Positions 14,120 to 49,401 of a DNA stretch of 64,000 nt are shown in pieces (the stretch's first letter is position 1; every line of letters starts with the position of its first letter). The stretch is taken from contig JAQMWT010000145.1 of assembly GCA_029834535.1 (NCBI GenBank), positions 54,934 to 118,933 of the forward strand. The letters run 5' to 3'. Position numbers and translations under genes: made by a program. A model generated the notes under the pieces. It saw only the letters and a list, made by a program, of their open reading frames with translations. It was not told the DNA's origin and searched no databases. Origin of the DNA: Chrysophaeum taylorii. Its lineage: Eukaryota > Sar > Pelagophyceae > Pelagomonadales > Pelagomonadaceae.

Positions 14120-14527
14120 TGGAGAGATTTGACCCTCTCCGGGTACATGGTAGAGACTGCGTGCAGTCTTAGGCGTGTGCAGACCATTCCGCTTGTCACA
14201 TGCTACTACACAAGGTAGGGATTTAGGTCCTAACTCCTTAAGGACATTAGGTCTCATAGAAGCGCTCACACTGGCAATGAGGGATGAAGCCTCCATTAAT
14301 TAAACAGACAACCCCATACCTGGCGGTGCGCACCTGGAGGTCTACTCCTTGTTGGAAGTGAACTGCAGATCTAATTCTTCATAATCTAAGAGTAATAATG
14401 GCGGGAGGGTAAGGAAGGAAAGAGGGAAATCCGTATTGTGGAGAGAAAACCCTCTAGTGGAGGGAGATAGGTGTGAAAGGAGTGAGGTGTTCCAGTTGTC
14501 GTACACGTAATAGTGTAGCTCTCTGGA
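14120..14527 (-). repeat. 3' LTR of element A
   Basis: On the minus strand the LTR starts TCCAGAGAGCTACACTATTA and ends AAATCTCTCCA; the outer bases form a short inverted repeat (AGAGA/TCTCT). It is 408 bp and homologous to the other LTRs in the window. A GAGGGGG polypurine tract sits immediately before it (14528-14534, read on the minus strand). Confidence 0.85.
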
Positions 14528-16886: not shown

Positions 16887-17026
16887 TTTGTAGGGGCCCT
16901 CACATTGCGTATTTCACTTCACAGGCGAGCCACGATGCCGTTTTATATGAGGGTTAGTTTAACGTCATTCGGACATAGTGAGGGGTAAGGATTAAGCATC
17001 TTGCTGAGCTATGGGCTGTTGTAAAC

Positions 17027-19881
17027 CTAGTAACGTGCGGAATCTAGTGAAAAGCGGAGCACCAAAGGGTCTAGTGAATCCATCAGCGACATTCTGAGTG
17101 CCGGAAACATGATGTAAGCGAATGCGTTTAGATGTACGTAATCGCGAATACGAAACCAGCGTGTGCTAATAGCTTTGGCCTTAGTCGCACTGCCAGGATT
17201 ATTTGATAGGCGGATCGCAGAAGCAGAATCCCCAAGTATAGGGCTGTTACGTATGAACGACATGTCCGATGGGAGAGGGTTGTCATGAGCATCATAATCT
17301 AATAACAAATCTTTCCCTGGAGGTTGGCGAAGATAGTATTGTGGGTTTATAGCGAATGCCATTTCCGTTAACAATTTGCGTAACCAGACCACATCATCAG
17401 CACACATATTAAGGGCGATGAGTTCACTCTCATGCGTAGAAGTAGCTGTGATAGGCTGTAGTTTGGACTTCCAGGTGATGAGAGAACCGAACAAAAAGAT
17501 GGCATAGCCAGTTGTAGATTTGCGGTCTTGTTCATAAGAGGGTGCGTTATCAGCATCGACGAACGCGACCAGTGGATCAAAGTTACCTGAATTTACTTGT
17601 TCTTTAGTGTAATCCAACATGGTTGCCATATCAGTACGATTGCCGATGAGAAGTCTAAGGTGGTCCATTAGAGCGGAAGAGCCAGAGTAGTACCATAGTC
17701 GAAGATTACGATTTTCGGGCTTGCGCAAATAGCGAAGAGTTCCTGTTAATACTTGAACATGCAGAAATGCTGGATTATGCATTCCTCGGGAACAACGACT
17801 AAGGCTTTGTGATAAATCAGGGCGACAGGCCAACTGTACAAAAGTGAGCTTGCCAAGTAAGGTTGAAAAGGTGTGTAGGATGAACTTGTCCATATCAGAA
17901 GATGGCTCTCCAGTTTTATAAGTGGTTGATGGTGACATAGGTGTGGAGGTAGGACGTAGCTGCATTAGAATAGGATACTCTTCAAACAATGCATCAATTT
18001 TAGCTTGACAGTCAAGTGAGATGGAACCATCGGTAGTACGCGTTATGCGCATACCTAAAAGAGTATGAACTTCTTCAAAGGTTTCGACTGAATATTCCTT
18101 TTTCATGGCTTGCTGGAATTCACGACGTAGAGTTTCCGAGGTGCAAGTGATAACAACATCATCCACTGATAGCGTGCGAAGTAAAAACGTAGCGTCAGCT
18201 TGGACTTTAGCATAGATGCATGTATCTGTTCGAAAGCGTGTATAGCCTAATGAGTCAAAGAAACCATTTGTGGTTTGATTCCAAAGGGCAGGACTCTGTC
18301 GTAATCCATAAAGAGATTTAAGTAGTTTTGGGAGACGTCGTCCTTGATATTTTGCATCTTCAGGATCGAGTAGGTGAATACCTTGTGGCAGTTTGACATA
18401 GACATGAGAATCTATGGGAGCTTGAACAAAAGCGTTAGGTACATCGACGTGGTAGACGGGAAGTCGTAGGTGAGCTGCAAGCGCCAGAACACAACGGATG
18501 CCTGTAAGCTGCGCCATAGGACTAAATGTGTTAAAAAAGTCAGTGCCCGTAGAAGCTAAGAATCCTCGTAGGACCAATCGTGCTTTATGTTTGATGTATT
18601 CACCGGCAGCATTGTTTTTATACGTAATCCCAGTCGGGTATCAATAGGCTTGGAGTTGACCATGGGCAACGCGAGTTTAAAGCAGCCAAACTTAACAATG
18701 TCAAAAATCTCCTTGGAAATAGCGGAGATATATGCTTTACGATCAGCGTCTGAGAGAACTTTGAGGCAGGTCAACTCATATTCATCAATCTTGATATCTT
18801 TGGCTTGAATTTTACATACGTCCGGACCAACAGTGCTGGGATCTTGAGCATTGGTAAGATGGGTGATTGCGTAAGAAGCGACCTTATCGTGGGTGTGAGC
18901 GTAAGCTGGACCTTCGACAAGTTGAACGACTAGTAGAGGGTCATCTCCAAAGTGGGCCTCAATGTAATGAGACTGCACGGTGATGTAGTCTTCGATGGCG
19001 GAGAGGTGAGGCTCGGAAGTCCCATAAGAAGCATCATTATGATCCAAGATAGAATGGGGTGTTAGCAAAGCATAAGCATATTGAGCGGGAGGAACTCGAA
19101 AAGCTTGCGAGTCTTCAGAAATGAGATGAACGAGAGCACGAGGAAGGTGAAAGTCTGCAAGGCTGAAGTCGTCGAAGAGATGAACAGGAGTGGCATCCGT
19201 CGATGGATGGCTAAGGCTCCTATGACACATAGCGGAAGAAGATTGGGAAAGCGCTTGGTGAACATGATGATGAAGGGATGGTGTAAATTCCCCTTCTAGA
19301 GGTATAGCCGTCCAGTGGATGCCATAAGCAACATGAAGGGAGTGGAGGGTGGGGTCGCGGAAAGTGATATACTGCTTGGAGAGGTCATACTTGAAGTCAG
19401 CAAGCGTACCACCAGCTTGTTTATAAGCGGCAACAGCTGGCGAAGCAATACGAGTAAGAACAGCCTTGAGATTAGTCTTGCGACGAGGCTGAGGTTGATG
19501 AGGACCACGGGTGAGACGAAGGACATCCTGGGAATAGAGAGACCGATAAGACGGTACAAGGGGTAAAGTGTGACAAGACACTTCAGATGCTGGAGGTGTG
19601 GTGACAGAAGCAGCGGGTGCAGAAGCAGCTGGAGCACATGCGGGAACGGGAGTAGGAGCATGGAAGAGAAGAAGGAGTCCCCCTCTCGTGTTCAATGTCG
19701 GTGGACAGAGCATTCCCCCTCTGCGCCGCATCATTGGGGGTGCTGTGAACAGAGAAGGGGATGTCGGGTGAAGGTGCGGGTGGGGGATGTTGTTCATAAT
19801 CAGGAGGAGATTGAGAAATAAGATGAGGAAAGGTAAGTTTAGAAGAAACACGGACTTGGCCGTTCTCAGGATTAAGGACAA
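17027..19881 (-). pseudogene. Element A reverse transcriptase and RNase H
   Basis: Two overlapping frames (18556-19881 and 17027-18577) together give a Ty1/copia RT followed by RNase H. Recognisable are KARLVLRGF-like start of the RT core, FNTFSPMAQLTGIRCVLALAA, VYHVDVPNAFVQAPIDS (catalytic Asp A) and LSVDDVVITCTSETL (catalytic pair). RNase H shows VAFVDADNAPSYEQDRKSTT and TATSTHESELIALNMCADDV. The usual Tyr-Val-Asp-Asp box reads Ser-Val-Asp-Asp in all three elements. A frameshift lies near 18560-18600. Confidence 0.85.
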
Positions 19882-20946
19882 CGTCCGCTAAGTGGTTAAC
19901 ATGGGGTGTGATTGACGGGTTTATAACATTAGCACCACATAAGTAGATATAGGGGCGACATCGAGGTTCATATTTACGAAATTCATTAGGTTCCAAATGC
20001 AGATAACAAACAGAACCAAAAGGTTTGAGGTAATCTTGTTGAGGAACATTACATTGATCGAACAAAACTTGTTGGGGGCTTAGGACTTTATTATAAATGC
20101 GTTCGAGGGAAACGTTAGGAAGGAGATTATACGATTGGACAGCATGTATAACAGCCCACGGGTAGTGTGGTGCCGGATCTGTTAGGGGGTGACCTTTATA
20201 GGATACATTAAGCATATGCCGGAGTCGTGTAGACGCGACAGTTGCTATATGACCAACAGCGGCTTCTACTTCATGATTTAAAACATGTAAGTAAGGGGGG
20301 AACGCAGACATATTAATACCATGTTCAACACGAAAGGGAGTTGTAACATGTTTTGATAAGTTGGGTTTAAAAGAATCACAATAAATTTCTTTTAATTGTA
20401 CAAAAGTGGAGCAAAAGTTGCGAACAAACTCGAGGGCATTACAAAATTCGCTAGAATTGGTGGTACGACAAAAGTACACTAACAAAAATTTAGAAACGAG
20501 ACACTTAAAGACGATGATATGGCGAAAAGATCCCCATTCCGATAGGACAGATACGTGACCACCATCACATGCCCAGGCTTCACCAGGTTGAAAAACTTTT
20601 TCGAATGATGGTTGGTAAGATGATGTGGATGAGGAAAGCGTTTTTTATGTAAAGTACAATCCACACCGAACTTACGGTAGGGCACATCTGAAGGATGATG
20701 TCCCGGACTGGCAATAACCTGAACAGCTTTTATAGCTTGGGAATCACTAGAATGATGTATATTGTGAAAATTGGTAGCACGTCGCTGAGCATCTCGAAAC
20801 GCGAGGGTGCCTCTGGCATGAACTTTTCTGTCGAAGGGCGCATGTTTCTCATGTAACTGTCTTGGAGTTATGAGAGGAATATGTTTCGTTTTCGTAAAAG
20901 ATGATGTATCTGCGGATGGAGTGTTAGAGAGGAAGACGTGAGCCAC
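19882..20946 (-). pseudogene. Element A integrase
   Basis: The pre-integrase region (ITPRQLHEKHAPFDRKVHAR to VDCTLHKKRF) has the His/Cys pattern of copia zinc domains. The core follows with the second catalytic Asp in IYCDSFKPNLSKH and the Glu in LHVLNHEVEAAVGHI, 35 residues later. The tail has LKPFGSVCYLHLEPNE, the copia counterpart of the FGCVAYVH block. Two frames are needed, with a shift near 20480. Confidence 0.75.
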
Positions 20947-21096
20947 TGAATCAAGATGAAATAGTGGAAGTTCGTGATTAGAAGCCAGATTATCACAACA
21001 TTGATGATTTTATTAGAGATGTATAACATTGTAATGGAACTCTGGTGTAATATGAAGGATGTGTCAGTAGGAAAGATGTTTGTGAAAAAGGTTGAC

Positions 21097-22619
21097 CTAT
21101 AGTTTTTTGGTTAGAGAGGCGTGATCAGGGTCAATGGATGGTGATAACGTTAATTTACGCAAGTCATAGACAATCTGACACGAATGTGTATAGATTACAT
21201 GATAGGCTCCAGCCGGAATAGCATTAGCGATTATGTCACAGCATAGATCCGGGGACAAAGACAGAAGGAAATTAATTTGGTACGCTGTGAAATTATTGGC
21301 GCGTGCCAATTCGCGAGTTGAATAATGTCGAATGCGATCGAGCTGTGGATCGTAAAGGATCATGGTAGCAAACCCACGAATAGTGGGAGTTGGGGTGTAT
21401 ATAGAATGAACTTTGGCGCCAATCTTTCTATTGCTAGATGTGATGAAGCCAAGGTATCTGCTTTGAGACAGATGCATGTCACTTAAAGCAAAAATTTTAT
21501 CGATAAACTCGAGACGATTTTCCTGAGGGTAAAAAATGAAAGAATCGTGAAGCACAGGTGAAGTGTAGGAAACCAATGTTTGTACTAGTCGACGGGTGTT
21601 ATGAGTTTCGTTATGATGGTGATAAGCTTGGCATAACCAAAGAAAACCGGTAACAGGAGTAAGAGAAGCAGTCTTATCGATTCCTGTATCATGTGTTTGG
21701 AAGATGTAGGTTTCGCCAAATGCATTTATGTGTGCCTGGTATTTAGAAGAAGAGTTAGAAACTATGATGTCTCCACCTATGTGTCTTCCACCAGTGATGT
21801 AAATGATGGAGGAAGTAGAAGATTTATTTAAGGATAACCTGTGAGATGGTTGGTTAGATTTGATAGTTGTAATACGAAAGGACACAGGTAATGTGGTAGA
21901 GTTTGGGAACAAGCGCCCCATAATATTATAGAGGAGCACAAGAGCCTTGAGTTCAATAGGAGAGCTCATACAAGAGAGGGACTTTCTTGACTTCGTTGAG
22001 AATCCTAAGCGAAAGTTAGAAATGCCCTCCATTTCATCTTGACTTGGATGTTCGACTGTTTTGTTTGAATGCAAACGGAGAAACAGCATGGTTAATGTTT
22101 CTAGCTCAGTAACTGTTAGGCGAACGGATCCTGTGCGACTGAAATTGCTGTAAGTTTTGGGTATGGAAACAAATGGCATATCAGAGAAAACCTGCGTCCA
22201 AGGTTCGTCGATAATTAACTTGCGACTGATGGAGTTAGCGTGATCTGCAATGTCCAGGAAGGAAGTGACTCGCTTATTGGGCCAAGAGAGCAAATCTAAA
22301 GGACCAGTATTATATTTGCGAGCAACAAGGATCCATCTTTCTCTGGCTTGATAATCTCCACACAAGTAACATGGAAAGCGATCACATATATCCACCGTAT
22401 AGTTCATCGTAGAGAAGATAAGATTAGCAACTCGTATATGATCTTCATACGATGCAGAGTGTGGTGGCGTCATCTCCATAAAAAGAATGAGGGGCTTTAA
22501 AACCTCAAGTACACTTAGAGCACTTGGAAACAAGGAGTCGTCCATATCGCGCTCGGAAGTTGAAATGGATCTCCCGTTGATTATGTTGCGATTGGAGCAT
22601 GGAGATGTCAATTCCACTA
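21097..22619 (-). pseudogene. Element A C5-cytosine methyltransferase domain, lacking motifs I and II
   Basis: The frame retains motif IV (VELTSPCSNRNIINGRS, catalytic Pro-Cys), motif VI (LFMEMTPPHSAS), motif VIII (YQARERWILVARK), motif IX (YSTRELARANNF) and motif X (DIIANAIPAGAYHVI). It is fused at about 22619 to gag residues after the deletion, so the S-adenosylmethionine loop present in B and C is missing. It is therefore not expected to be active. Confidence 0.8.
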
Positions 22620-23365
22620 TGTCTGAGATTTAAGTTCAGTGACATCTGTACAAGATACAGTTTCGTAGTAATGGTAAGCTAGAAGGGCTACTGCACGTAA
22701 TTTATTAGGGTGTGCGGTAAACGAGTAAATTTTCTTTAACTGCGGCCACATGGCGAGGGCAGGGCGTTCTTGAGATTCTAGGTTGAAGAACGTGTACAGG
22801 AAACCGGCGTAGGTTTCGCAGTGTTTAACCCAATCGGCATTAGAGAGACCTGAGAAGGATATGTTGGTTAGAGATGAATCATACACAATTGATTTAGGAA
22901 ATCGGGTATCTAATAAAGTGAGGACACGCTTGACATCCTCATTTAATTCGGGTCGAACAAGATTATATGACTCTTGATAGAAAAGTCGTTCGAGATCATT
23001 ACGTGCATCAACTGATAGTTGATGTGTAGAGTTGACGTGCCAAGTCTTGAGATGAGCAGGCAAGGCATCTTCGTTAGGTAACTGTAATTCATAAATCTTT
23101 TCAGCTTTCCATTGAGCGAGAATGATATCAACTTCGTGTTCGAGAAGCTGGTCATATTCTGGGGCATTTCGCGTATATGAGTTATAGGAATCGTAGGTGA
23201 ACAGCGCGTCCGCATATGGGCTTGTCATATGCCTGCGAAGCATCTCAATTTGCAAACTCACTTTAGTCGAATTGTCTTGGAAGCGCAATCCACCGTTGAG
23301 TTATCAACGAGGATTTGTTCTTGCTTATAGATATCCGTAGTGGATATTGGTTTTTATTTTGACAT
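22620..23365 (-). pseudogene. Element A gag N-terminal remnant
   Basis: It matches the first ~240 residues of B's Gag (FQDNSTKVSLQIEMLRRHM, RPALAMWPQLKKIYSFTAHP). The ATG at 23363-23365 is followed at codon 4 by TAA, and one base is missing near 23295 compared with B. The end of Gag is lost in the deletion to the methyltransferase. Confidence 0.8.
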
Positions 23366-23567
23366 GGTGGTGTGACCTATTGGAAATAGGTTATAGGAGT
23401 GATAAAACAATGTGACATGTTCGAATGAAGGGCTTCTAACATGCGGAGGGATATGTACAGTTCGCTATTTTAAGCGTGTATTTATATATATGACCAAACA
23501 AATCACTATGCCATTAGAGCATGATACTTTGAGACTGAAGAATGGATTAGTTCTCGAGCAGTCAGTC
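23366..23567 (-). other. Element A leader, gag-proximal part, ending in left CAGTC duplication
   Basis: Noncoding leader between A's primer site and gag. It is cut at 23567 by element B; CAGTC at 23563-23567 is repeated at 55213-55217, where the rest of this leader continues. Confidence 0.85.
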
Positions 23568-23948
23568 TCCAGAGAGCTACACTATTATGTGTACGACACT
23601 GGAACATCTCACTCCTTTCACGGCTATCTCCACAAGAGGGTTTTCTCTCCGCAATACGGCTTTCCCTCTTTCCTTCCTTACCCTTCCGCCATTACTACTC
23701 TCAGATTATGACTTCCAACAAGGAGTAGACCTCCAGGTGCGTACCGTCAGGTATGGGGTTGTCTGTTTAATTAATGGAGGCTTCATTTCTCATTGTCAGT
23801 GTGAACGCTTCTATGGGACCTAATGTCCTTAAGGAGTTAGGGCCTAAATCCCTACCTTGTGTAGTAGCATGTGACGCGGAATGGTCTGTACACGCCTAAG
23901 ACTGCACGCAGTCTCTACCAAGTACCCGGAGAGGGTCAAATCTCTCCA
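23568..23948 (+). repeat. 5' LTR of element B
   Basis: It starts TCCAGAGAGCTACACTATTA and ends AAATCTCTCCA. It is 381 bp, about 20-30 bp shorter than the others because of a gap near 23712 (ATTATG directly followed by ACTTCCAACAAGG). Confidence 0.85.
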
Positions 23949-23967: not shown

Positions 23968-24422
23968 TAGGCGTGTCAGCCCAACTGTGTTGTGCGTATA
24001 ATGGAGTGATCAGTTTATGCCTGATTACGAGTACAATACGACAATGTGTTTGGCGGTGGTCTACTGTACATATTTGTTGTGTGACGGTATTTGACCACCG
24101 GTTTGTGACCGAGTTGGGTCGGCCACTGGTCATATGCACTCGCATAGCCAATAAAATTAAAATTTTTCCTATACAAGCCTCGGAAACTTGTGCGGGTTTT
24201 TCCTTTCATTCCCCAACAAAAGACTGACTGCTCGAGAATTAATCCATTCTTCAGTCTCAAAAGCATCATGCTTAAATGGCATAATGATTTGTTTGGTCTT
24301 GTATATATGCTCACGCTTAAAATAGCGAACTGTACATATTCCTCTGCATGTTAGAAACCCTTCATTCAAACATGTCAACTTGTTTTATCCTTCCTATAAC
24401 CTATTTTCAATAGGTCAAGACT

Positions 24423-27180
24423 ATGTCAAAACCAAAACCAATATCCACCACGGATATTTATAAGCAGGAACAAGTCCTTGTTGATAAACTCAACGCTGGA
24501 TTGCGCTTCCAAGACAATTCGACGAAGGTGAGCTTGCGAATTGAGCTGCTTCGCAGGTATATGACAAGCCCATACGTGGACGCGTGGTTCTGCTTCGATT
24601 CGTATGACGCTTACACCCGGAATGCTCCGGAATACAACCAACTTCTCGAACACGAAGTTGATATCATTTTCGCTCAATGGAAAGCTGAAAATATTGATGA
24701 ATTGCAGTTACCCAATGAAGATGCCCTGCCTGATCATCTCAAGACTTGGCACGTCAACTCTTCCCATCAACTATCAGTTGATGCTCGAAATAATCTCGAA
24801 CGACTTTTCTATCAAGAGTCATATAATCTTGTTCGACCCGAATTAAATGAGGATGTTAAGCGTGTCCTCACTTTATTAGATACCCGATTCCCTAAATCAA
24901 TTGTGTATGACTCATCTCTAACCAACATATCCTTTACAGGTCTCTCTAATGCCGATTGGATTAAACATTGCGAAACTTACGCCGGTTTCCTGTACACGTT
25001 CTTCAATCTAGAATCTCAAGAGCGCCCTGCCCTCGCCATGTGGCCGCAGTTAAAGAAGATTTATGCGTTTACTGCACACCCTAATAAACTACGTGCAGTA
25101 ATGTTTTTAGCTTACCATTATTATGAAACAGTGTCATGTACAGTCACTGAACTTAAATCTCAGTTTAATCGAATGTCCTTAAATGTTAGTTGGTATGCTC
25201 ATGTATTTGTCGAACAACTCCTTGCTTTCCAAACTCAGGCAAGGCAATTAAACCATGACGAAGCATCAATTCAATTTAATGATTCCATAATCACACTTAA
25301 AGCTCACGAGGAGATCTATCGTCTATATGCTAATCCCTCTGATCACGAGCGCTATTCTCAGTCTTTATTGGAGTGGTGCAAACTCTACGAGACACGCTCA
25401 GGGAACAACTCGACTCACGATCCTGAAGTTTTAAAGCTAGTTGATCCCAACGATGTTCGTCCGTTATTGGAGTTCTGGTTGAAGATATATAAAGAGACAA
25501 AGTTTTCATCTAACCGACGCTTGGATAAACCCGCATCATGGATTCCATATATCCCTGGTACTACCGCTACCAAGCCACCTAAGGTACTATTGATGGATAC
25601 TATTCATCAATCCCACTGCTCTCTAAACAATGCTTACTCATCGTTAGCTACTGTTGCTGGACAGTCTGGTTTTAACGCTCGTAAGCTTCGTAATGCAAAA
25701 GATAAAGCATCGACAATTTTACCTCGTGATACGTCCTACTATCGTCCACCCTCAAATTATAATGTCAAAGGCACCAGTTTCGACCGTCCTGTCTACTCAC
25801 AGTCCTCTAACCGCAACTCACGCTCCAATATGTCACTTATGGACAGGGCTGCTTATCAAGTTGACCGACTTCGCCACCTGTTTGGTAAATTACAGGAAGC
25901 GAATCCCAATCCTTCTGCCGACTCTAAAATGGTACAGGAGGAAATGAAGAGCTTACTGAGTACCCTTTGGACAACCGCTTCTCAAGCTTCGACACAGTCT
26001 CTAGATCCTGACGAAGCTGCTCAAGTTCATCTATACTTATCACGAGTGGATACAATGTCCAACACCATATCGAACTTGTTAGAAGCCGATAAAGAATCTC
26101 ATGTTATAGAAGAAAAGTATCAAGCTGAAACTTCTGCTCCTGCAGCGTCCCCCAGTGATGCGGAGCAGAGGGGGGCTGCTGAAACAGAAAAGATGTTTCA
26201 TACTTTTCTATCTATCAAAGATGATGAAATCGATAACATTCCTCAACCGCTATTGCAGCACATAAATGCTAAAGCCCAGAATGCTATCGTTCGTCGTCAA
26301 GCTCGGGAAACTGCTTCGCACTCCGAGCTTCCCAATAACCAACCTAACGAAGACAATGAGGATGGACGAAGACAATGAGGATGGAACAGATTCCCCTGTG
26401 TTGCTACCGAAATTAAACAATGGTTTTACACTTGTCGTAGTACCTTCCGAACAAACGCAAAGTTTCATGACACAGTACGTGTTTGGTCAAAGCTCTACAC
26501 ATGCCTGTTATGCAACAATGCTTAAATTGTACAATGAGTACAATTTACCTCTAATGACTACGCCAGGATATGCTGATACGTGTGCCTCTCAACATGTGAT
26601 TAATTTTAAACGTTACGCTGATCCCATACATATCGTTAAACTACCCGAGTCCTTGTCACCCGCTATTCAGACGGCTACTGATACTCAAAGTATCACTCAT
26701 GCCATGATAATAAGAACCGTCATCCCCGCTCTCCCAAAGCATCCTAACGTGGGATATGTAAAGCTAGATGTTGCGCTTTTCCTACCCAAGCAAAACGACC
26801 ATAACGATCCCGATCTGCACATCATCAGCATGACTCAATGGGGAGAAGATAAACTTGGTATACATCTTTATGGGGTTGAATTTAAAGGACAATCATCTAT
26901 CCAGAGTAAAATTGACGACAATGTCAAGATTACTTTGTTTAGATTAAACAACTTGGTGCCTACTCTCCCAATTTATTCGCTCCAACAAGCTAAAGCTCGG
27001 AAAATGGAACTTCGCTCCTTACTGTTCAGACTAAGTGCTTTTAACGAACAACGCGAAATGCTCAAGCTATACTCCAACCTCCAGCAACGTGTAATTTACG
27101 TCCCGTGGCTCAAAACCATCTTGGAGTCCATGCATTCGCAATTGCCTTACATACGCAAACATTTCTCACCTCCTGTATGA
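24423..27180 (+). CDS. Element B Gag-protease, ending at an in-frame UGA
   Basis: Gag runs from ATG 24423 (MSKPKPISTTDIYKQEQVL) as a mainly helical ~620 aa protein. I see no CCHC zinc knuckle. The protease follows with GYADTCASQHVINFKRYA (codons about 26569-26622). This corresponds to the copia DSGASxH active site, with Cys in place of Gly. A 19 bp tandem duplication near 26345-26383 shifts the frame at the Gag-protease join; in element C the same region is one frame. The frame ends at TGA 27178-27180, a stop also present in C at the same codon, after which the frame simply continues into the methyltransferase. Confidence 0.8.
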
Positions 27181-29464
27181 CGCAAGGTTACTACACGCTT
27201 ACTCCATACGGTAACTACGTCTCCAAGTTCACGAACACCTACTGTAACTCTACTTTGTTCCGGGATGTCCACTCCTGCCTTCTTGGCTTGCGCTTCCAAT
27301 GACTTGCAAATCAACATCAACGTTAGAGTTCTTATTGAGAGCGACGACAATCTTACGCACATGCTACGAAGACGCTTTGGTAATTCCATCGAAGTTTTCC
27401 CGTCACTACCCAAGTTCCTTACCTTTCTACATCGAGCATCGGACACTGAACGTGCAAGATACTATACTGATATAGTGGAACTGACGTCTCCATGCACCAA
27501 TCGCAACATAATCAACGGGAGATCTATTTCAACTTTCGAGCGTGATATGGACGACTCCTTGTTTCCAAGTGCTCTAAGTGTATTTGAGCTTTTAAAGCCC
27601 CCCATTCTTTTCATGGAGATGACGCCACCACACTCCGCATCGTATGAATATCATATACGAGTTGCTAATCTCATCTTCTCTACGATGCACTATACGGTGG
27701 ATATGTGTGATCGATTTCCATGCTACTTGTGTGGAGATTATCAAGCCAGAGAAAGATGGATCCTTGTTGCTCGCAAATATAATACTGGTCCTTTAGATTT
27801 GCTCTCTTGGCCCAATAAGCGAGTCACTTCCTTCCTGGACATTGCAGATCACGCTAACTCCATCAGTCGCAAGTTAATTGTCGACGAACCTTGGACGCAG
27901 GTCTTCTCTGACATGCCATTTGTGTCTACACCCAAAACTTACAGCAGCTTCAGTCGCACAGGGTCCGTTCGCTTAACAGTTACTGAGCTCGAAACTGTAA
28001 CCATGCTGTTTCTTCGTCTGCACTCAAACAAAACAGTCGAACATCCAAGTCAAGATGAAATGGAGGGCATTTCTAACTTCCGCTTAGGATTCTTGACTAA
28101 TTCAAGAAAGCCCCTCTCTTGTATGAGCTCTCCTACTGAACTCAAGGCTTCTGTGCTCCTCTATAATATTATGGGACGCTTGTTCCCGAACTCTATCACA
28201 TTACCTGTGTCCTTTCGTATTACAACTATCAAATCTAACCAACCACCTCACAGGTTATTCTTAAATAAATCTTCTACTTCCTCCATCATTTACATCTCTG
28301 GTGGAAGACACACAGGTGGAGACATTATAGTTTCTAACTCTTCTTCTAAATACCAGGCACACATAAATGCATTTGGCGAAACCTACATCTTCCAAACACA
28401 TGACACAGGAATCGATAAGACTACTTCTCTTACTCCTGTTACCGGTTTTCTTTGGTTATGCCAAGCCTACCATCATAATAATGAAAATCAAGACACGCGT
28501 CGTCTAGTACAAACGTTGGTTTCCTATACTTCACCTGTGCTTCACGATTCTTTCATTTTTTACCCTCAGGAAAATCGTCTCGAGTTTATCGATAAAATTT
28601 TTGCTTTAAGTGACATGCATCTGTCTCAAAGCAGATACCCTGGCTTCATCACATCCAGTGATAGGAAGATGGGCGCCAAAGTTCATTCTATATACACCCC
28701 AACTCCTACTATTCGTGGGTTTGCTAACATGATCCTGTACGATCCACGGCTCGATCGCATTCGACATTACTCAACTCGCGAATTGGCACGCGCCAATAAT
28801 TTCACAGCGTACCAAATTAATTTTCTTTTGTCTTTGTCCCCGGACCTATGCTGTGACATAATCGCTAATGCTATTCCGGCCGGAACCTATCATGTCATTT
28901 ATAAACATTTGTGTCAGATTGTCTATGACTTGCGTAAATTAACGTTATCACCATCCTTTGACCCTGATCACGCTTCTCTAACAAAAAATTGCAGGTCAAC
29001 CTTTTTCACAAACATATTTCCTACTGACACATCCTTAATATTACACCAGAGTTCCATTACAATGTTATACATTTCTAATAAAATCTTTTCATGTTGTGAT
29101 AATCTTGCTTCTAACCACGAACTTCCACTCTTTCATCTCGATTCAGTAGCTCACGTCTTCCTCTCTAACACTTCATCCGCAGATATATCATCTCCTACTA
29201 AAGCGAAACATATTCCTCTCATAACTCCAAGACAGCTACATGAGAAACATGCACCCTTTGACAGAAAAGTTCATGCCAGGGGCACCCTCGCATTTCGAGA
29301 TGCTCAGCGACGTGCTACCAATTTTCACAATATACATCACTCTAGTGATTCCCGAGCTATAAAAACGGTTCAGGTTATTGCCAGTCCGGGACATCATCCT
29401 TCTGATGTACCCTACCGTAAGTTCTGTGTGGATTGTAAGTTACATAAAAAACGCTTTCCTCATC
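27181..29464 (+). CDS. Element B C5-cytosine DNA methyltransferase and start of integrase
   Basis: The frame continues from the UGA. Motif I is VTLLCSGMSTPAFLA (from 27244); motif II is VLIESDD. Motif IV is DIVELTSPCTNRNIINGR with the catalytic Cys codon at 27493-27495. Motif VI is LFMEMTPPHSAS (Glu codon 27616), where most enzymes have Glu-Asn-Val. Motif VIII is YQARERWILVARK. A ~330-residue variable region (the target-recognition position) follows, then motif IX YSTRELARANNF and motif X DIIANAIPAGTYHVIY. All seven are in canonical order, so the domain (~560 aa) looks catalytically complete. Downstream in the same frame comes the copia pre-integrase zinc region (ITPRQLHEKHAPFDRKVHAR, VDCKLHKKRFPH), which places the enzyme between protease and integrase. 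ATG 27265 lies inside motif I and is not a sensible start. Confidence 0.85.
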
Positions 29465-29832
29465 TAACTAACTAACTAACTTCAGACCTCTCCCGAGCAT
29501 GGGAGCCAGGCCGGACCGACAGGAGCCAGTCCGGAATCACGGGCCTGTAGACGAGGAGCGCCGAAAGGTCGGTCGGCGGAGAGTGACCATCAAGCTTGTC
29601 GCCATGCGACGAGGAGACCGCGATGTGACTGACAACCAACTCGTCGATAACCTTCCGTCTGCGCCCCCCGGCCATACCCCGTCCCACTGCGAACGTTCCG
29701 GCTGCAAACCGGCCCGCCCGGGAGGCGAATAGGTGCCAACCTACGCCGGGAGGGCGGATGCCCTCGCAAGGCTCAGGATTCATGAGGCACCGTCCTCCAT
29801 CGCAACCGCAGTCGGCGATCAGGGTAAGATAA
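29465..29832 (-). mobile_element. Short non-LTR element, copy 1 (TTAG tail)
   Basis: A 368 bp insertion in the integrase of B flanked by a 10 bp duplication TTTCCTCATC (29455-29464 and 29833-29842). On the minus strand it ends GGTCTGAAGTTAGTTAGTTA, a short TTAG tandem tail in place of poly-A. The long flanking duplication and simple-repeat tail indicate target-primed reverse transcription. It is either a SINE or a 5'-truncated LINE end; no RT is seen. Confidence 0.75.
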
Positions 29833-30189
29833 TTTCCTCATCCACATCATCTTACCAAGCAACCATCATTCGAATAAGTTTTTCAACCTGGTGAAGCCTG
29901 GGCATGTGATGGTGGTTACGTGTCTGTCCTCTCGGAATGGGGATCCTTTCGCCATATCATTGTCTTTAAGTGTCTCATCTCTAAATTTTTGTTAGTGTAC
30001 TTTTGTCGTAGCACCAATTCTAGCGAAATTTGTAATGCCCTCGAGTTTGTTCGCACTTTTTGCTCTACTTATGTTCATGTACAACTAAAACAAATTTATT
30101 GTGATTCGTTTAAACCTTACTTATCTCAACATGTTACTACTCCCTTTCGTGCTGAACACTACTCTAGAACACGGTATTAATATGTCTGC
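29833..30189 (+). pseudogene. Element B integrase, core part 1
   Basis: It continues the integrase after copy 1. QPGEAWACDGGYVSVLSEWG holds the first catalytic Asp (codon 29910-29912). A TAA at 29875-29877 replaces a Lys codon seen in C, so the frame is dead. Then CNALEFVRTFC and IYCDSFKPYLSQH (second Asp) follow. Interrupted at about 30198 by copy 2 of the short non-LTR element. Confidence 0.7.
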
Positions 30190-30198
30190 TTCCCCCCC

Positions 30199-30446
30199 TG
30201 CCCGGTTGGCAGCCGGAACGTTCGCAGTGGGACGGGGTATGGCCGGGGGGCGAAGACGGAAGGTTATCGACGAGTTGGTTGTCAGTCACATCGCGGTCTC
30301 CTCGTCGCATGGCGACAAGCTTGATGGTCACTCTCCGCCGACCGACCTTTCGGCGCTCCTCGTCTACAGGCCCGTGATTCCGGACTGGCACCTGTCGGTC
30401 CGGCCTGGCTCCCATGCTCGGGAGAGGTCTGAAGTTAGTTAGTTAG
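30199..30446 (+). mobile_element. Short non-LTR element, copy 2 (5' truncated)
   Basis: It is the same family as 29465-29832 in opposite orientation, ending GTTAGTTAGTTAG. Flanked by TTCCCCCCC on both sides (30190-30198, 30447-30455), 9 bp. The 5' end is truncated relative to copy 1. Confidence 0.75.
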
Positions 30447-30595
30447 TTCCCCCCCTTACTTACATGTTTTTAATCATGACAAGTGCAGGCCAGTAAGTTC
30501 ACCTAGTCCCAATCTCTAACCCCAGTAAGTTCACGTGGTCCCAATAAGTTCACCTGGCCAGTAAGTTCACCTAGTCCAAATCTCTAACCCCAGTA

Positions 30596-30786
30596 ACTAA
30601 CTAACTAACTTCAGACCTCTCCCGAGCATGGGAGCCAGGCCGGACCGACAGGAGCCAGTCCGGAATCACGGGCCAGTAGATGAGGAGCGCCGAAAGGTCG
30701 GTCGGCGGAGAGTGACCATCAAGCTTGTCGCCATGCGACGAGGAGACCGCGATGTGACTGACAACCAACTCGTCGATAACCTTCCG
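30596..30786 (-). mobile_element. Short non-LTR element, copy 3, inside Helitron 1
   Basis: Same family as copy 1, tail TTAGTTAGTTAG read on the minus strand, inserted into the GTGAACTTACTGG repeat array. The flanks share at least GTAA. 5' truncated. Confidence 0.7.
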
Positions 30787-30993
30787 TAAGTTCGGCGTAA
30801 ACCCACTCGTGCTCACACCCACTCCTTCGAGCTCGTCGCTCTCGCCTCCGCCAATCTAAGCTGCTTTGATCCGCACACACCGCTAACCTTTGAGTTTACT
30901 CTAAAACCCCCAGGAAGTTTACCTGGTCACTATATTCACCAAGTCCCAATCTCAAACCCCAGTAAGTTCACCAAGTCCCAGTAAGTTCACCTA

Positions 30994-31581
30994 CAGTGCG
31001 CGTGTAGACGCCGGGAGGGGGCTTATCGGTATTGCGCAGCACGTGTGGGGTAGGGTGGAGTCGTCGACTCAGAAGAGCATATCCTCGGGGTTGCCGATCA
31101 ACAGAGAGCCACGTAGAGCTGGACGTGACAGAAGACGGGCTTGGGCAAGAGGACGCCGACATCGCGGGGCGTCTGGCCCTGGCTCTTGTTGATCGTTTGG
31201 CGTCGGCGGGCCTTAAGGGATACGGGTTGGAGGAGCCTCGGTGACACGACACGATCGATCATGTATCTGGTACCGTTCCAGTGGCCGTGCGACGGGTCGA
31301 GGTTGCGAAGACCTTAAGCTCGCGATCAAAGTCAGCATGCCGTTGGTTGTCAGGGAGTCGAAAGCTCGACTGTAAAGAGCGAGGCGTCGTCTTCCGACCC
31401 AACCTAGTCGGCCGAAAAGAACTCCGACGCCTCGTCTCCGGGAAAAAAAGGCCGCGGTCATATGCGCGTTGTCAGCATCGACAACATCGTTTCGACGGGG
31501 CGTGAGAATGGCGCGCTGAAAGAGCCGGCGCGGGTCGTGGAAACAGTCTGCGAGGTCGCAGTAGACGGCTTGGAGGATCAA
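30994..31581 (-). pseudogene. Helitron 1 PIF1-type helicase C-terminal remnant
   Basis: The minus-strand frames give AILTPRRNDVVDADNA (Helitron/PIF1 domain start of the C-terminal part). Across frameshifts they then give the region of TINKSQGQTPR and HVQLYVALCRS, the last PIF1 motif. At least two frame changes make it nonfunctional. Confidence 0.75.
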
Positions 31582-31619
31582 TGTCTGGCTCGCGCGCCTA
31601 CCTGATCCTTACACTGAAT

Positions 31620-31811
31620 CGGGGAACCCACCCACATCCTTCATGCTCCCCACACACACACCCTCTTAGCAGTCGACATTTAAAGACAAAAAAATGGTGT
31701 ACTTATCTCCGCCCGTCAGGCACATCCCTCATACCCCACAAACCCACCCACATCCTTCATGCTCCCCACACACACCCCCCTCTTAGCAGACGACATTTAA
31801 AGACAAAAAAA
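31620..31811 (+). repeat. Two copies of the Helitron trailer repeat
   Basis: ACCCACATCCTTCATGCTCC through CATTTAAAGACAAAAAA occurs twice (from about 31629 and 31742), and again near 33107, 33257 and 33689. It follows each copy of the cargo ORF end and is also next to the Helitron 5' terminus, so it is probably the 3' trailer of the carried gene, multiplied by duplication. Confidence 0.7.
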
Positions 31812-31812
31812 T

Positions 31813-33055
31813 GACGGCGCTGGTTCCGGCGACCCCGCCAACGTTCATCTCGTCGACGGTCCTCTCTCCCACGAATTCGTCTCCATGGGCGTCCTCGTCG
31901 ACCCCACCATCTCGACACCCGTGCTCATACCCCAACTCCAGCGTGCTCTAACCTCCCAGCGCGAGACAGCTCGGGCTACTGCACTCCAGCGCCTTGCGGT
32001 CACCCTACATCACCGATGCACTTCGAGTAGCGGCGTCCTCATGGGATCGCTTCTCGACCACGTTCATCAGCTCGTGGCCCAGCTCCGCCCTTCAAATCCC
32101 CAACCGCTGCTGGGCTGAGATGTGTGCCCAGTACTTTGGCTACCCCTCTCCAGCTTGTTCGGGCCTCGTGGGCACTCGCATTCTGGGCACTGACGTCGTT
32201 CTCGACGCTCACGGCAAGGTGCTTCTCACGCAGGCCAACCTTGTCAACCGCGGAGGAGCGCGGGCCACCTGGCATGACGGCCAGCTCGAGTGCGTCCACT
32301 GCAGCGTCAAAGAGGCCGGCATCCCAGCCCTGTCCGAGGTTTTCGGCATCTTTGCTGACGTCGTCGCCCCTACCATTCGCACGCGCCTCTACGGCCGGTA
32401 CCGAGGCAATCTCGCCCGTCGCCACGTCGTCCCAGACATCCTCACCACGCTCGACAACAAGGAGCAACTCTACGACATCAAGACCCTCGCTTGGGGTTTG
32501 TTCTACACCGCCCACGCCCTCCATCCCTCCCACCCGTCGCCTGTCGATCGGCGCGCTGCGCAAGTCCACTCCGAATACCTCGCTCACGCCCGCGGCATCG
32601 ACGCCATCATCCCCCAGCCAGGTACAGTACCACCGCCGGGCTTCTTGGGCCCTGTCGAACAGCGGCTACGTAGCTACGGCACCGTCGCCGGCCTCGTCTT
32701 TGGTGCCTTCGGTGAGGCCAGCGCGGCGTGCCACGCTCTCGCCCAAACATGCGCAGAGCGCTTCGCTGCGCGAACCTGGGTGGCAAGCGGCTGCGCCAAC
32801 TTCACAGAGGCAAAGGCGGCCCAAACTCGCCGCATCTACCGTGAGTGGGGGATCGCCAACGCATTAGGCCGGGCTCGCTGTGCCCTCACGGCCCTCACCC
32901 ATCTCGCCGCCTCGGGGAACCCCACCCAGGCCGCCCGATCCCAGCAGGACGTCACCCTTCGTCGCACATACGTCCGGCGGCAGCATGCGTACGACCTCCG
33001 GGCGGGGCCCGTCCTCTCTTCGCCTGCCCCACGACTCGGCGATGACCCCGACTAG
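31813..33055 (+). pseudogene. Helitron cargo ORF: retroelement-type PD-(D/E)XK nuclease-like domain
   Basis: Two overlapping frames, switching near 32000. The second gives YFGYPSPACSGLVGTRI, then VVPDILTTLDNKEQLYDIKT, where Asp and DxK resemble a PD-(D/E)XK core. LRSYGTVAGLVFGAFGEASA and a helical tail with WGIANALGRARCALTALTHLA follow. I remember similar C-terminal blocks in algal RT-containing ORFs, but cannot verify this. It runs antisense to the Helitron helicase, so it is probably captured rather than native. GC-rich codon use is unlike the surrounding retrotransposon and like the host genes. No RT is present here. Confidence 0.45.
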
Positions 33056-33755
33056 GTCCCGCGTACTTATCTCCGGCCGTCAGGCACATCCCTCCTACCC
33101 CACAAACCCACCCACATCCTTCATGCTCCCCACACACACCCCCCTCTTAGCAGTCGACATTTAAAGACAAAAAATCACGACTCGGCGATGACCCCGACTA
33201 GGTCCCGCGTACTTATCTCCGCCCGTCAGGCACATCCCTCCTACCCTACAAACCCACCCAAATCCTTCATGCTCCCCACACACACCCCCCTCTTAGCAGT
33301 CGACATTTATAGACAAAAAATCAAACATGCGCAGAGCGCATCGCTGCGCGAACCTGGGTGGCAAGCGGCTGCGCCAACTCTCACAGAGGCAAAGGCGGCC
33401 CAAACTCGCCGCATCTACAGTGAGTGGGGGATCGCCAACGCATTAGGCCGGGCTCGCTGTGCCCTCACCGCCCTCACCCATGTCGCCGCCTCGAGGAACC
33501 TCACCCAGGCCGCCCGATCCCAGCAGGACGTCACCCTTCGTCGCACATACGTCCGGCGGCAGCATGCGTACGACCTACGGGCGGGGCCCGTCCTCTCTTC
33601 GCCTGCCCCACGACTCGGCGATGACCCCGACTAGGTCCCGCGTACTTATCTCCGCCCGTCAGGCACATCCCTCCTACCCCACAAACCCACCCACATCCTT
33701 CATGCCCCCCCCCCACACACCCCCCTCTTAGCAGTCGACATTTAAAGACAAAAAA
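32749..33755 (+). repeat. Direct duplication of the cargo ORF 3' end
   Basis: The segment from AACATGCGCAGAGCG to the trailer (32749-33170) recurs at 33325-33755 with small changes. A shorter extra trailer copy lies at 33176-33320. These tandem rearrangements lie next to the Helitron 5' end. Confidence 0.8.
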
Positions 33756-33823
33756 GTTAAAGACAAACAGTCGACATTTAAAGACAAACAGACAAACAAA
33801 CATCTGCCGATTAGTAGTAAGGA

Positions 33824-36788
33824 AGTAGAAGCCGCTGTTGGTCATATAGCAACTGCCGCGTCTACACGACTCCGGCATATGCTTAATGTATCCTACAAAG
33901 GTCACCCCCTAACAGATCCCGCACCACACTACCCGTGGGCTGTTATACATACTGTCCAATCGTATAATCTCCTTCCTAACGTCTCCCTCGAACGCATTTA
34001 TAATAAAGTCCTAAGCCCCCAACAAGTTTTGTTGGGTCAATGTAATGTTTCCCAACAAGACTACCTCAAACCTTTTGGCTCTGTTTGTTACTTGCATTTG
34101 GAACAACGAATTTCATAAATATGAACCTCGATGTCGTCCTTACATCTACTTATGTGGCGCCAATGTTATAAACCCATTAATAACACCCCATGTCAATCAT
34201 TTAGCTGACGTTGTCCTTAATACTGAGAACGGCCAAGTCCGTGTTTCTTCTAAACTTACTTTCCCTCATCTTATTTCTCAATCCCCTCCTGATTATGAAC
34301 AACATCCCCCACCCGCACCTTCACCCGACATCCCCTTCTCTGTTCACAGCACCCCCAATGATGCGGCGTAGAGGGGGAATGCTATGTCACCGACACTGAA
34401 CACGAGAGGGGGACTCCTTCTTCTCCTGCCCATGCTCCTTCTCCCGTTCCCGCATGTGCCCCAGCTGCTTCTGCACCCGCTGCTTCTGTCACCACAACTC
34501 CACCATCTTAAGTGTCCTCCAACACTTTACCCTTTTTACCGTCTTATCGGTCTCTCTATTCCCAGGATGTCCTTCGTCTCACCCGTGGTCCTCATCACCC
34601 TCAACCTCGTCGCAAGACTAATCTCAAGGATGTTCTTACTCGTATTGCTTCGCCTACTGTTGCCGCTTATAAACAAGCTGGTGGTGCGCTTGCCGACTTC
34701 AAGTATGACCTCTCCAAGCAGTATATAACTTTCTGCGACCCCACCCTCCACTCCCTTCATATTGCTCATGGCATCCACTGGACGGCTATACCTCCAGAGG
34801 GGGAATTTACACCATCCCTTCATCATCATGTTCACCAAGCGCTTTCTCAATCTTCTTCCGCTATGTGTCATAGGAGCCTTAGCCATCCATTGACGGATGT
34901 CACTCCTGTTCATCTCTTCGACGACTTCAGCCTTGCAGACTTTCACCTTCCTCGTGCTCTCGTTCATCTCATTTCCGACCATGCTCAGCTTTTCAAGTTC
35001 CTCCCGCTCAATATGCTTATGCTTTCTCACACCCCACTCCATTTTGGATCATAATGACGCTTCTTATGGTGACTCCGAGCCTCACCTCTCCGCCATCGAA
35101 GACTACATCACCGTGCAATCTCATTACATTGAGGCCCACTTTGGAGATGATCCTCTACTAGTTGTTCAACTTGTCGAAGACCCCGATTACGCTCACACTA
35201 ACGATAAGGTCGCTTCTTACGCAATCACCCATCTTACCAAGGCTCAAGACCCCAGCACTGTTGGTCCGGACGAATATAAAATTCAAGCCAAAGATATCAA
35301 GATTGATGAATATGAGTTGAACTGCCTCAAAGGTCTCTCAGACGCTGATCGTAAAGCTTATATCTCCGCTATCTCCAAAGAGATTTTTGATATTGTTAAG
35401 TTTGGCTGCTAAAACTCGCGTTGCCAATGGTCAACTCAAAGCCTATTGATACCCGCCTCGTCTTACGTATAAAAACCAATGCTGCCGGTGAATATCTCAA
35501 GCACAAAGCGCGCCTGGTTCTACGAGGATTCTTAGCTTCTCTGGGCACCGACTTTTTCAACACATTCAGTCCTATGGCACAGCTTACTGGCATCCGTTGT
35601 GTTCTGGCGCTAGCAGCTCATCTACGACTTCCCGTCTACCACGTCGATGTACCTAACGCTTTTGTTCAAGCTCCCATAGATTCTCATGTCTATGTTAAAT
35701 TGCCACAAGGTATTTACCTTCTCGATCCTGAAGATACCAAATATCAAGGCCGTCGTCTCCCAAAACTACTTAAATCCCTTTGTGGATTACGACAGAGTCC
35801 TGCCCTTTGGAATCAAACCATAAATGGCTTCTTTGACTCATTAGGCTATACACGCTTCCGAACAGATACGTGCATCTACGCTAAAGTCCAAGCTGACGCT
35901 ACGTTTTTAATTTGCACGCTCTCAGTGGATGATGTTGTTATCACTTGCACCTCGGAAACTCTACGTCGTGAATTCCAGCAAGCCCTGAAAAAGGAATACT
36001 CAGTCGACACCTTTGAAGAAGTTCATACTCTCTTAGGCATGCGCATCACGCGTACTACTGACGGTTCCATCTCACTTGACTGTCAAGCTAAACTTGATGC
36101 ATTGTTTGAAGAGTACCCCATTCTGATGCAGTTACGTCCGACCTCTACACCGATGTCACCATCAACCACTTATAAAACTGGAGAGCCATCTTCTGATATG
36201 GACCAGTTTATTTTTCACACCTTCTCCATCTTACTTGTCAAGCTCACTTTTGTACAGTTGGCCTGTCGCCCTGATCTATCCCAAAGCCTTAGTCGTTGTT
36301 CCCGAGGAATGCATAATCCAGCATTTCTGCATGTTCAAGTACTAACAGGAACTCTCCGCTATTTGCGCAAGCCCGAAAATCGCAATCTTCGACTATGGTA
36401 CTACTCTGGCTCTTCCGCTCTAATGGACCATCTTAGACTTCTCATCGGCAATCGTACTGATATGGCAACCATGTTGGATGACACTAAAGAACAAGTCAAT
36501 TCAGGTAACTTTGATCCATTGGTCGCGTTCGTTGATGCCGATAACGCACCCTCTTATGAACAAGACGCAAGTCTACAACTGGCTACGCCATCTTTTTGTT
36601 CGGTTCTCTCATCACTTGGAAGTCTAAACTACAGCCTATCACAGCTACTTCTACGCACAAGAGTGAACTCATCGCCCTTAATATGTGTGCCGATGATATG
36701 GTCTGGTTACGCAAATTGTGAACGGAAATGGCATTCGCTATAAACCCATACTACTATCTTCGCCAACCTCCAGAGAAAGATTTGTTAT
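33824..36788 (+). pseudogene. Element B integrase end, linker, RT and RNase H start
   Basis: It resumes after Helitron 1 with the integrase Glu region (AGTAGAAGCCGCTGTT codes EVEAAVGH) and LKPFGSVCYLHLE. The Pro-rich linker follows (PPDYEQHPPPAPSPDIPFS). The RT includes FNTFSPMAQLTGIRCVLALAA, VYHVDVPNAFVQAPIDS and LSVDDVVITCTS, and the start of RNase H reads VAFVDADNAPSYEQD. Several frameshifts (near 34110, 34370, 35050, 35412 and 36565) make it nonfunctional. Cut by element C at 36788. Confidence 0.8.
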
Positions 36789-37188
36789 TGGAGAGATTTG
36801 ACCCTCTCCGGGTACATGGTAGAGACTGCGTGCAGTCTTAGGCTTACAGACCATTCCGCTTGTCACATGCTACTACACAAGGTAGGGATTTAAGCCCTAA
36901 CTCCTTAAGGACATTAGGTCCCATAGAAGCGTTCACACTGACAATGAGGAATGAAGCCTCCATTAATTAAACAGACAACCCCATACCTGACGGTACGCAC
37001 CTGGAGGTCTACCCCTTGTTGGAAGTGAGCTGCAGATCTCACTCTTCATAATCGGAGATAAAAGGGCGGAAGGGGTAAGGAAGGAAAGAGGGGATGCCGC
37101 ATTACCGAGAGAAAACCCTCTTGCAGAGATAGGTGTGAAAGGCGTGAAATGTTCCAGTGTCGTACACATAATAGTGTAGCTCTCTGGA
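36789..37188 (-). repeat. 3' LTR of element C
   Basis: 400 bp, with the same ends as the other LTRs (minus strand TCCAGAGAG to AATCTCTCCA). The polypurine tract GAGGGGG lies at 37189-37195, read on the minus strand. Confidence 0.85.
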
Positions 37189-39314: not shown

Positions 39315-39507
39315 CTTAATAAGATCCCCGCATTGCGTATTTCATTGCATTTCACACCTTAGCGATCCACTGTTCCGTTGTATATGAGGGTTAGTTTGAT
39401 TTCATTTCGGACATAGTGAAGGGTAAAGGTCAACCATCTTGTTGAGCTATGGGTTGTTGTAAGCCAAGTAACGTGCGAAATCTGCTGAAGAGCGGAGCTC
39501 CGAAGGG

Positions 39508-41486: not shown

Positions 41487-41555
41487 TCTTAACTACTAAT
41501 CGACAGATGTTTGTCTGTTTGTCTGTTTGTCTGTTTGTTTGTCTTTAAATGTCGA

Positions 41556-42828: not shown

Positions 42829-42897
42829 CTGCTAAGAGGGTCTGTTTGTTTGTCCCTCGATTTAGGGTAAGGATCAGGTAGGCACGAGAGCCAGACA

Positions 42898-45494: not shown

Positions 45495-45506
45495 CCTGAA
45501 CAGCTT

Positions 45507-49297: not shown

Positions 49298-49401
49298 TTC
49301 CAAGTCAGCGTGTGTACCGCCGAATGTCTGATGCAAGCACATCAACAACCCCATCCCACGGAAGCCCCTCGTTTTTGTTTTTAGCTCCCATTGCACAGGC
49401 G

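Follow-up and report, generated by a model that had tools for sequence, protein, structure and literature searches.

A divergent C5-cytosine methyltransferase-like domain in the Pol region of a Copia retrotransposon of the alga Chrysophaeum taylorii

DNA methylation normally silences transposons, so that a transposon which carries and maintains a methyltransferase of its own presents a puzzle. This puzzle is raised by a 64,000-nucleotide stretch of the genome of Chrysophaeum taylorii, a pelagophyte and marine golden-brown stramenopile alga (assembly GCA_029834535.1, contig JAQMWT010000145.1, forward-strand positions 54,934 to 118,933; hereafter the window, numbered from its first letter). The original prediction, made from the letters of the window, proposed three copies of a Copia element with a complete C5-cytosine DNA methyltransferase (DNMT) between protease and integrase. 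The present analysis, for which 70.8 Mb of genome in 697 contigs were searched, indicates that the element is a Ty1/Copia long terminal repeat (LTR) retrotransposon whose additional domain very probably descends from C5-methyltransferases and lies behind a conserved in-frame stop codon. The published assembly is described as 702 contigs and 71 Mbp, and the main text of that genome paper contains none of the words transposon, retrotransposon and repeat (PMC10366177; this and the other papers cited are drawn on in extract). The window copies are termed A, B and C/D and their element family 1.

The class of the element follows from its reverse transcriptase (RT), which matches RVT_2 in copies B (5.2e-41) and A (8.1e-39) and thereby places it in Ty1/Copia. 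Integrase precedes RT in pol, with an rve match of only E 0.0048, under its cut-off, and the LTRs are direct; the window element is thus the Copia retrotransposon that had been predicted. Family 1 is ordered LTR, gag, protease-like motif, TGA, methyltransferase, integrase, RT-RNase H, a third open reading frame (ORF3) and LTR. Genome copy C523 is 11,223 bp long and has direct LTRs of 408 and 403 bp that are 91.6% identical. In sense-strand coordinates, its 5' LTR (3009-3416) is followed by a gag-like ORF (motif at 3921), the DTCAS protease-like motif (6030), the TGA (6633), the methyltransferase (motif I at 6702, motif X at 8319), integrase and then RT and RNase H (ending at about 12324), ORF3 (from 12487) and the 3' LTR (13829-14231). 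ACTCC stands at both ends of C523, the one copy checked, as a candidate 5-bp target duplication; given a CT-rich flank with further short matches, it is no more than probable. No Pfam match above cut-off was obtained for gag or protease of family 1, and the putative protease is so labelled from its DTCAS motif and its position.

In copy B, the domain (27181-28990, plus strand) begins a plus-strand ORF of 764 amino acids (27181-29475) that carries all the predicted motifs in one frame and in the proposed order: VTLLCSG (motif I) starts at 27244, VLIESDD (II) at 27328, ELTSPC (IV) at 27478, LFMEMTPP (VI) at 27607, YQARERW (VIII) at 27739, HYSTRELA (IX) at 28765 and ANAIPAG (X) at 28864. The domain is flanked by DTCAS upstream at 26575 and by an integrase HHCC zinc finger downstream at 29326-29436 (plus strand). 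Motif II is the weakest assignment, with no recognised counterpart in either the Dnmt2-built motif test or the family-2 alignment described below. Motif IX reads DRIRHYSTRELARANNF where Dnmt2 has LKLRYFTPREIANLMGF, and the motif I segment CSGMSTP resembles CSGTEAP of a host DNMT5-like gene on contig C621. The assignment of the domain to the element was upheld, as was its reading as a divergent homologue of C5-methyltransferases, and other parts of the prediction needed correction. The domain lies between protease and integrase in two of the three window copies but not in copy A, because the protease and motifs I-II are deleted there; copy A (21097-22629) accordingly falls short of the claim that all three domains are complete. 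The pieces of the third copy, at 45507-46811 and 50291-51211, belong to a single minus-strand element split by an insertion at 46791-50305.

The homology of the domain is most readily seen through a second repeat family of the same genome. A genome search with PF00145, the Pfam DNA_methylase model, yielded 123 scored matches, many of them in this family 2, whose proteins exceed the PF00145 cut-off in both cases scanned (E 4.2e-8 and 2.4e-8). Its 1952-amino-acid frame contains a protease-like DGGAS motif, the methyltransferase (4.2e-8), integrase and RVT_2 (3.6e-39), and the methyltransferase therefore occupies the same place in Copia pol as in family 1. Residues 16-566 of the window domain align to the family-2 methyltransferase with motifs I, IV, VI, VIII, IX and X in register. 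Local alignments with family-2 locus L025 gave z 5.6 for the window domain and 6.0 for genome copy C84, with none of 300 shuffles as good in either case; for locus L020 the values were 2.2 (9 of 300 shuffles as good) and 4.9 (1 of 300). A blastp comparison with the family-2 frame reached E 0.019 over residues 455-566. At the profile level, a 15-copy family-1 profile, thin at an effective sequence number (Neff) of 1.2, scored 36.5 against a 64-sequence DNMT profile (E 5.8e-4 as a single comparison; residues 21-207 aligned), 28.4 once family 2 was left out (motifs IX-X aligned) and 26.6 once families 2 and 3 were left out, family 3 being a Gypsy group described below. None of 60 column shuffles reached the real score for any of these three DNMT profiles, the highest being 24.0. 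Because family 2 is a clear methyltransferase with which the domain aligns, and because the DNMT profile matches as well, the domain is very probably a C5-methyltransferase homologue.

Several results pull in the opposite direction. The Pfam check proposed with the original prediction failed: PF00145 stayed under its cut-off in all seven family-1 copies scanned (best 14.2 bits, cut-off 22), and of the seven only one was listed, with E 0.03, in a scan that listed matches with E up to 1; a further family-1 piece scored 11.2 bits. The comparison with a Dnmt2-only profile gave 29.3, and one of 60 shuffles scored higher (33.2), while direct profile comparisons of family 1 with family 2 were not significant (E 0.19 and 0.43). 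A motif test built from Dnmt2 located only motifs I, IX and X at the expected places in all four copies tried, and not II, IV, VI or VIII, with z 2.1-3.6 (7, 0, 1 and 2 of 300 shuffles as good) and z -0.4 to 1.6 for five negative controls. Pairwise comparisons of family 1 with host DNMT5 (z -0.1 and 0.5), Dnmt2 (1.5 and 1.9) and family 3 were weak or null, spanning z -0.6 to 1.9. EMT replaces ENV in motif VI, and Thr takes the place of the Gln that normally follows the catalytic Cys. AlphaFold models were of low confidence, with mean predicted local distance difference test (pLDDT) values of 36.4 and 34.8; a PDB fold search with the first of these models found no match with E <= 0.001, and the strand and helix order of a low-confidence single-sequence model, which resembles the methyltransferase core, is given little weight. 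Searches further afield were negative: those of protein databases gave no match for family 1 or family 2 among 7988 and 7991 scored candidates, none of 109 and 72 pattern matches in IMG/VR scans was confirmed, and a search for phage relatives of the host Dnmt2 yielded nothing. That the element took its domain recently from the host's own Dnmt2 or DNMT5 was rejected, as there is scarcely any pairwise similarity.

The domain has been maintained across many copies. At least 64 matches to the 764-amino-acid ORF are present in the genome, a minimum figure since the search scored 59 of 1748 candidates. Of the 64, 37 span nearly the whole ORF, and 20 of these are free of stops. Among 18 copies, the ratio of nonsynonymous to synonymous substitution rates (dN/dS) in the methyltransferase has a median of 0.096 over 150 pairs, with 134 pairs below 0.2 and all 150 below 0.5, and these values are pushed up by the inclusion of decaying copies. 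Elsewhere in the element, medians were 0.070 for protease (111 pairs) and 0.053 for RT, the latter from 36 pairs, the number that nine copies yield, as C84 seemingly dropped out through saturated synonymous sites and C114, whose RT row is another element (33% identical), seemingly did so too; over the same 36 pairs the methyltransferase stood at 0.090. Within the domain, the median was lowest in the motif I-VIII part (0.079 versus 0.099 and 0.098). Among copies that have the respective position, Cys105 is kept in 15 of 15, Pro104 in 14 of 15, Glu146 and Arg190 in 15 of 16 each and Arg192 in 16 of 16; in the 13 full copies, 72 of 106 motif columns are invariant versus 284 of 496 others (p 0.05). 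These comparisons show purifying selection on the methyltransferase domain, with its putative catalytic residues largely conserved, and catalytic activity appears probable. In family 2, the dN/dS median is 0.186 over 153 pairs (83 below 0.2), and PC, EN and R are kept in all 18 loci, which had been picked by PF00145 score.

Access to the enzyme would depend on a stop codon. At the protease/methyltransferase boundary of copy B stands an in-frame TGA (27178-27180, plus strand), absent from the original prediction, which recurs there in 17 of 17 copies, including C84 (about 74% identical in the domain). The next codon is CGC or CAC, with its C kept 17 of 17 times, and the reading frame is unchanged across the TGA; the remaining in-frame stops, at seven positions in three alignments, are each confined to one copy. 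The first Met after the TGA is residue 29 and the motif I core comprises residues 22-28, so a start at this Met would cut off motif I. Since the TGA precedes the methyltransferase in all 17 of these copies, translation of Pol presumably depends on bypass of the stop codon. Tca2, a Copia element of Candida albicans, likewise has an in-frame UGA to be bypassed for Pol, but this UGA lies between gag and pol, whereas that of family 1 follows the protease motif, and the extract mentions no methyltransferase (PMC2194720). The sequence flanking the Tca2 UGA did not by itself direct readthrough (PMC2194720).

These data are compatible with a model in which the TGA would be bypassed in a fraction of translations, yielding mainly Gag-protease and a little Gag-protease-DNMT-integrase-RT. 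Within the particle, the enzyme would lie alongside integrase and RT, and it could methylate the element's complementary DNA (cDNA), or the site of insertion, while integration proceeds or shortly afterwards. The mark might then dampen the new copy and keep the harm to the host small, or flag the copy for a host maintenance enzyme, for which the DNMT5-like gene is a candidate. As the domain is fused to Pol and adjoins integrase, these two targets are favoured. Interference with host marks, which the original prediction also offered, is conjectural; that the enzyme methylates the element's own DNA is a tentative reading, somewhat short of an even chance, and the explanation as a whole, from a Pol-encoded DNMT through bypass and packaging to methylation of cDNA or the insertion site, may be right or wrong with about equal probability. 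Base changes between copies speak against it in part: C/T differences are not enriched at CpG on the C side (CpG 0.201, CpA 0.199, CpC 0.203, CpT 0.235), the G side is mixed (CpG 0.142, ApG 0.155, TpG 0.099, GpG 0.075), and a CpG self-mutation signature between copies is therefore unsupported. Observed/expected CpG is 0.87-0.95 in five family-1 stretches (TpG 1.19-1.31) and 0.70 in one LTR, compared with 1.20-1.46 in six host stretches (TpG 0.75-0.90), 1.00 in family 2 and 1.15 in family 3. The lower family-1 values may hint at old CpG decay, but base composition differs.

Among the other explanations, that the motifs arose by chance in an unrelated Copia insert would accommodate the sub-threshold Pfam scores, the low-confidence folds and some weak controls, and is nevertheless very improbable: chance matches were ruled out by the shuffles of the DNMT profiles together with the ordered alignment to family 2, a certain methyltransferase that occupies the same place in another Copia family. 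A descendant of a C5-methyltransferase that has lost catalysis and now helps to build the particle or integrase, or binds nucleic acid there, is unlikely, although it deserves more weight than chance, as it would agree with the high divergence, the EMT in place of ENV, the PF00145 scores, the lack of a clear CpG-specific signature and motif columns that are barely more invariant than the rest. Such a loss is harder to reconcile with the retention of the catalytic Cys, Glu and Arg in almost every copy, with the lowest dN/dS falling in the motif I-VIII part and with the intact PC, EN and R of family 2.

An active enzyme might, on the other hand, act on RNA (genomic, primer tRNA or host RNA) as Dnmt2 does, a reading that draws on the alignment of the Dnmt2 profile at motifs IV and IX and on the unclear CpG signature in DNA. 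It is quite improbable, as Dnmt2 was the only large DNMT set compared, pairwise z values against it remained low, and the SymbioDIRS-Dnmt3 enzymes methylated DNA in yeast (PMC5890265). A further alternative concerns expression only and is compatible with the remaining explanations: the TGA might not be bypassed, and methyltransferase-Pol might instead arise by non-AUG internal initiation, from a promoter at the junction or by splicing. In its favour, and as a point against bypass, no convincing RNA structure was seen after the TGA; in the predicted stem, 2 of 21 pairs show two-sided change, and the covariation term is -0.78, a value obtained without shuffle control. A separate start would, however, require neither the conserved TGA and following C nor the same frame on both sides, and this alternative is doubtful, if still to be reckoned with.

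Methyltransferases occur in further elements of this genome. A single acquisition in a Copia ancestor probably underlies families 1 and 2: the domain lies in the same place and can be aligned, and their RTs are 33% identical. In family 3, a protease-like stretch of locus L050 (C235:19501-22329) is followed by a PF00145 match of 22.8 bits (cut-off 22), and L051, on the same strand about 670 bases past the end of the L050 frame, matches RVT_1 (9.8e-10) and RT_RNaseH (5e-28), which identifies the family as Ty3/Gypsy with methyltransferase and RT seen in separate frames. The family-3 domain matches a Dnmt2 profile (1e-9) yet aligns pairwise with neither family 1 nor family 2, a pattern that points to its having been acquired independently. 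L052 (C178) is a divergent relative of this domain above the PF00145 cut-off (6.6e-10), with no element type seen. Family 3 has a more canonical C5-methyltransferase, with ASPPC at motif IV and 57 matches in the genome search, and a branch 69-70% identical to it has open frames of up to 3063 amino acids. A third abundant Copia RT group (PF07727 matches 8-220, many with identical scores) looks younger.

The host itself has a Dnmt2 on C634 and, on C621, a 2086-amino-acid frame that is DNMT5-like because it matches PF00145 and SNF2 together; two further small PF00145 places were found in the genome, at C57:374397 and C260:30968. DNMT5 is a maintenance-type enzyme elsewhere. It is conceivable, if improbable, that element enzymes supply a de novo methylation which the host may lack and that host DNMT5 perpetuates the marks, so that silencing would depend on writers encoded by parasites, namely two Copia lineages that acquired the enzyme jointly and one or more Gypsy lineages that acquired it separately. 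DNMT5a has been reported in pelagophytes (PMC9998398).

The findings extend what has been described in other retrotransposons. DNMTs have been reported in long interspersed nuclear elements (LINE), DIRS and Gypsy elements, and Symbiodinium Copia elements were found without them (PMC5890265). Family 1 shares the traits of these cases, with a DNMT in the coding region, many copies and Ka/Ks mostly below 0.2. Specifically, KnitGypsy-Dnmt3 of Klebsormidium nitens is also an LTR retrotransposon with a C5-DNMT inside its Pol ORF, intronless copies and Ka/Ks below 0.2, but it is a Ty3/Gypsy element with a DNMT3-family enzyme and a DIRS-like repeat arrangement, whereas family 1 is a Ty1/Copia element whose LTRs are direct and whose DNMT has diverged too far for Pfam (PMC5890265); the Gypsy family 3 of C. 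taylorii is its nearer parallel. SymbioDIRS-Dnmt3 and SymbioLINE-Dnmt resemble family 1 in a coding-region DNMT, multiple copies and purifying selection, and differ in being DIRS and LINE elements (PMC5890265). When tried in yeast, SymbioDIRS-Dnmt3 enzymes carried out de novo CG methylation, and those of SymbioLINE and KnitGypsy showed no activity, a result its authors call inconclusive (PMC5890265). Another stramenopile transposon with a DNA methyltransferase, the ParB-methyltransferase element Sola1-1_Ec32 of Ectocarpus, has a transposase instead of RT and a predicted N4-methylcytosine (4mC) or N6-methyladenine (6mA) enzyme (PMC12477816).

The claim that the arrangement is undescribed has to be made with caution. 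One sentence of 2025 places DNMT3 members in LTR Copia and DIRS elements (PMC12344493), but it cites a 2018 paper that reports LINE, DIRS and Gypsy elements and finds Symbiodinium Copia without a DNMT, and the extract around the sentence describes no element. Among the matches listed in open-licence literature, no Copia element of the family-1 build and no pelagophyte DNMT retrotransposon is described, and a documented Copia case of this build appears to be new. An acquisition separate from the dinoflagellate and charophyte cases is plausible. DNMT fusions, known from other kinds of retrotransposon, are thus present here in three groups of elements within one genome, two of them Copia and one Gypsy. 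With three families that carry the enzyme after a protease-like region, this small genome (71 Mb) offers a compact system for asking whether new copies are marked, and the divergence of family 1 illustrates that Pfam-based surveys can miss such cases.

The window copies are variously broken. Copy B lies on the plus strand and starts with a 5' LTR at 23568-23948 (80.5% identity to the C523 LTR), followed by a gag-like region at 24414-26228 that is 90.6% identical at the amino acid level to another copy, has only a sub-threshold Pfam match (E 0.18) and has its frame broken near 26364-26378. The protease-containing stretch (26374-27177; 95.5% amino acid identity to C523) precedes the methyltransferase, and the zinc finger behind it aligns weakly with that of family 2 (E 0.24). 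An insertion or rearranged repeat (29465-29814) interrupts the integrase, which continues at 29815-30297; a second insertion (30298-33800) breaks the copy before integrase core, RT and RNase H (33801-36793, plus strand). Copy B ends at 36793, at the junction with the LTR of the next element.

This next element, copy C/D, runs on the minus strand from LTR to LTR (54883-36789). Its 5' LTR (54490-54883, 90.5% identity) is followed by gag and protease (51215-53962) and by the two halves of the methyltransferase, N-terminal at 50306-51211 and C-terminal at 45600-46790 (94% and 89% amino acid identity to C523). The insertion between them holds another Copia RT (47429-48634, minus strand; RVT_2 7.9e-36) that is 27% identical to the family-1 RT. 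Integrase (43806-45603), a second insertion in pol (about 41489-43805), RT and RNase H (39570-41488), ORF3 (37593-39341) and the 3' LTR (36789-37188, 83.5% identity) complete the element. The pol insert contains a foldback with inverted arms at 41555-42500 and 42864-43807, about 946 bp long and 98.7% identical. Beside the 5' LTR, 54884-55746 holds extra LTR pieces in direct and inverted orientation, with a palindrome at 54490-55212.

Copy A, also on the minus strand, is a deletion derivative in which the methyltransferase begins at about residue 96 and is fused to a gag fragment (22623-23300). Methyltransferase and integrase start occupy 20494-22626, without protease and motifs I-II, followed by integrase, RT and RNase H (17134-20614; SH3_retrovirus match 9.7e-6, just under cut-off), ORF3 (14947-16913) and the 3' LTR (14120-14527, 81.3% identity). 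ORF3 is conserved before the 3' LTR in copies A and C/D and has only sub-threshold Pfam matches. Copies A and B are arranged head to head, with the homology of A stopping at the start of the LTR of B (23568); a 5' LTR belonging to A is not seen at the 22623-23948 junction. A short repeat, tandem in places, occurs at 9237-9605, 32744-33755, 42564-42792 and 55797-55992; one of these four sites is a GC-rich region of host genes, and the others lie elsewhere in the window. A host ORF at 61895-63910 has a weak SET domain match (E 4.5e-4, under cut-off).

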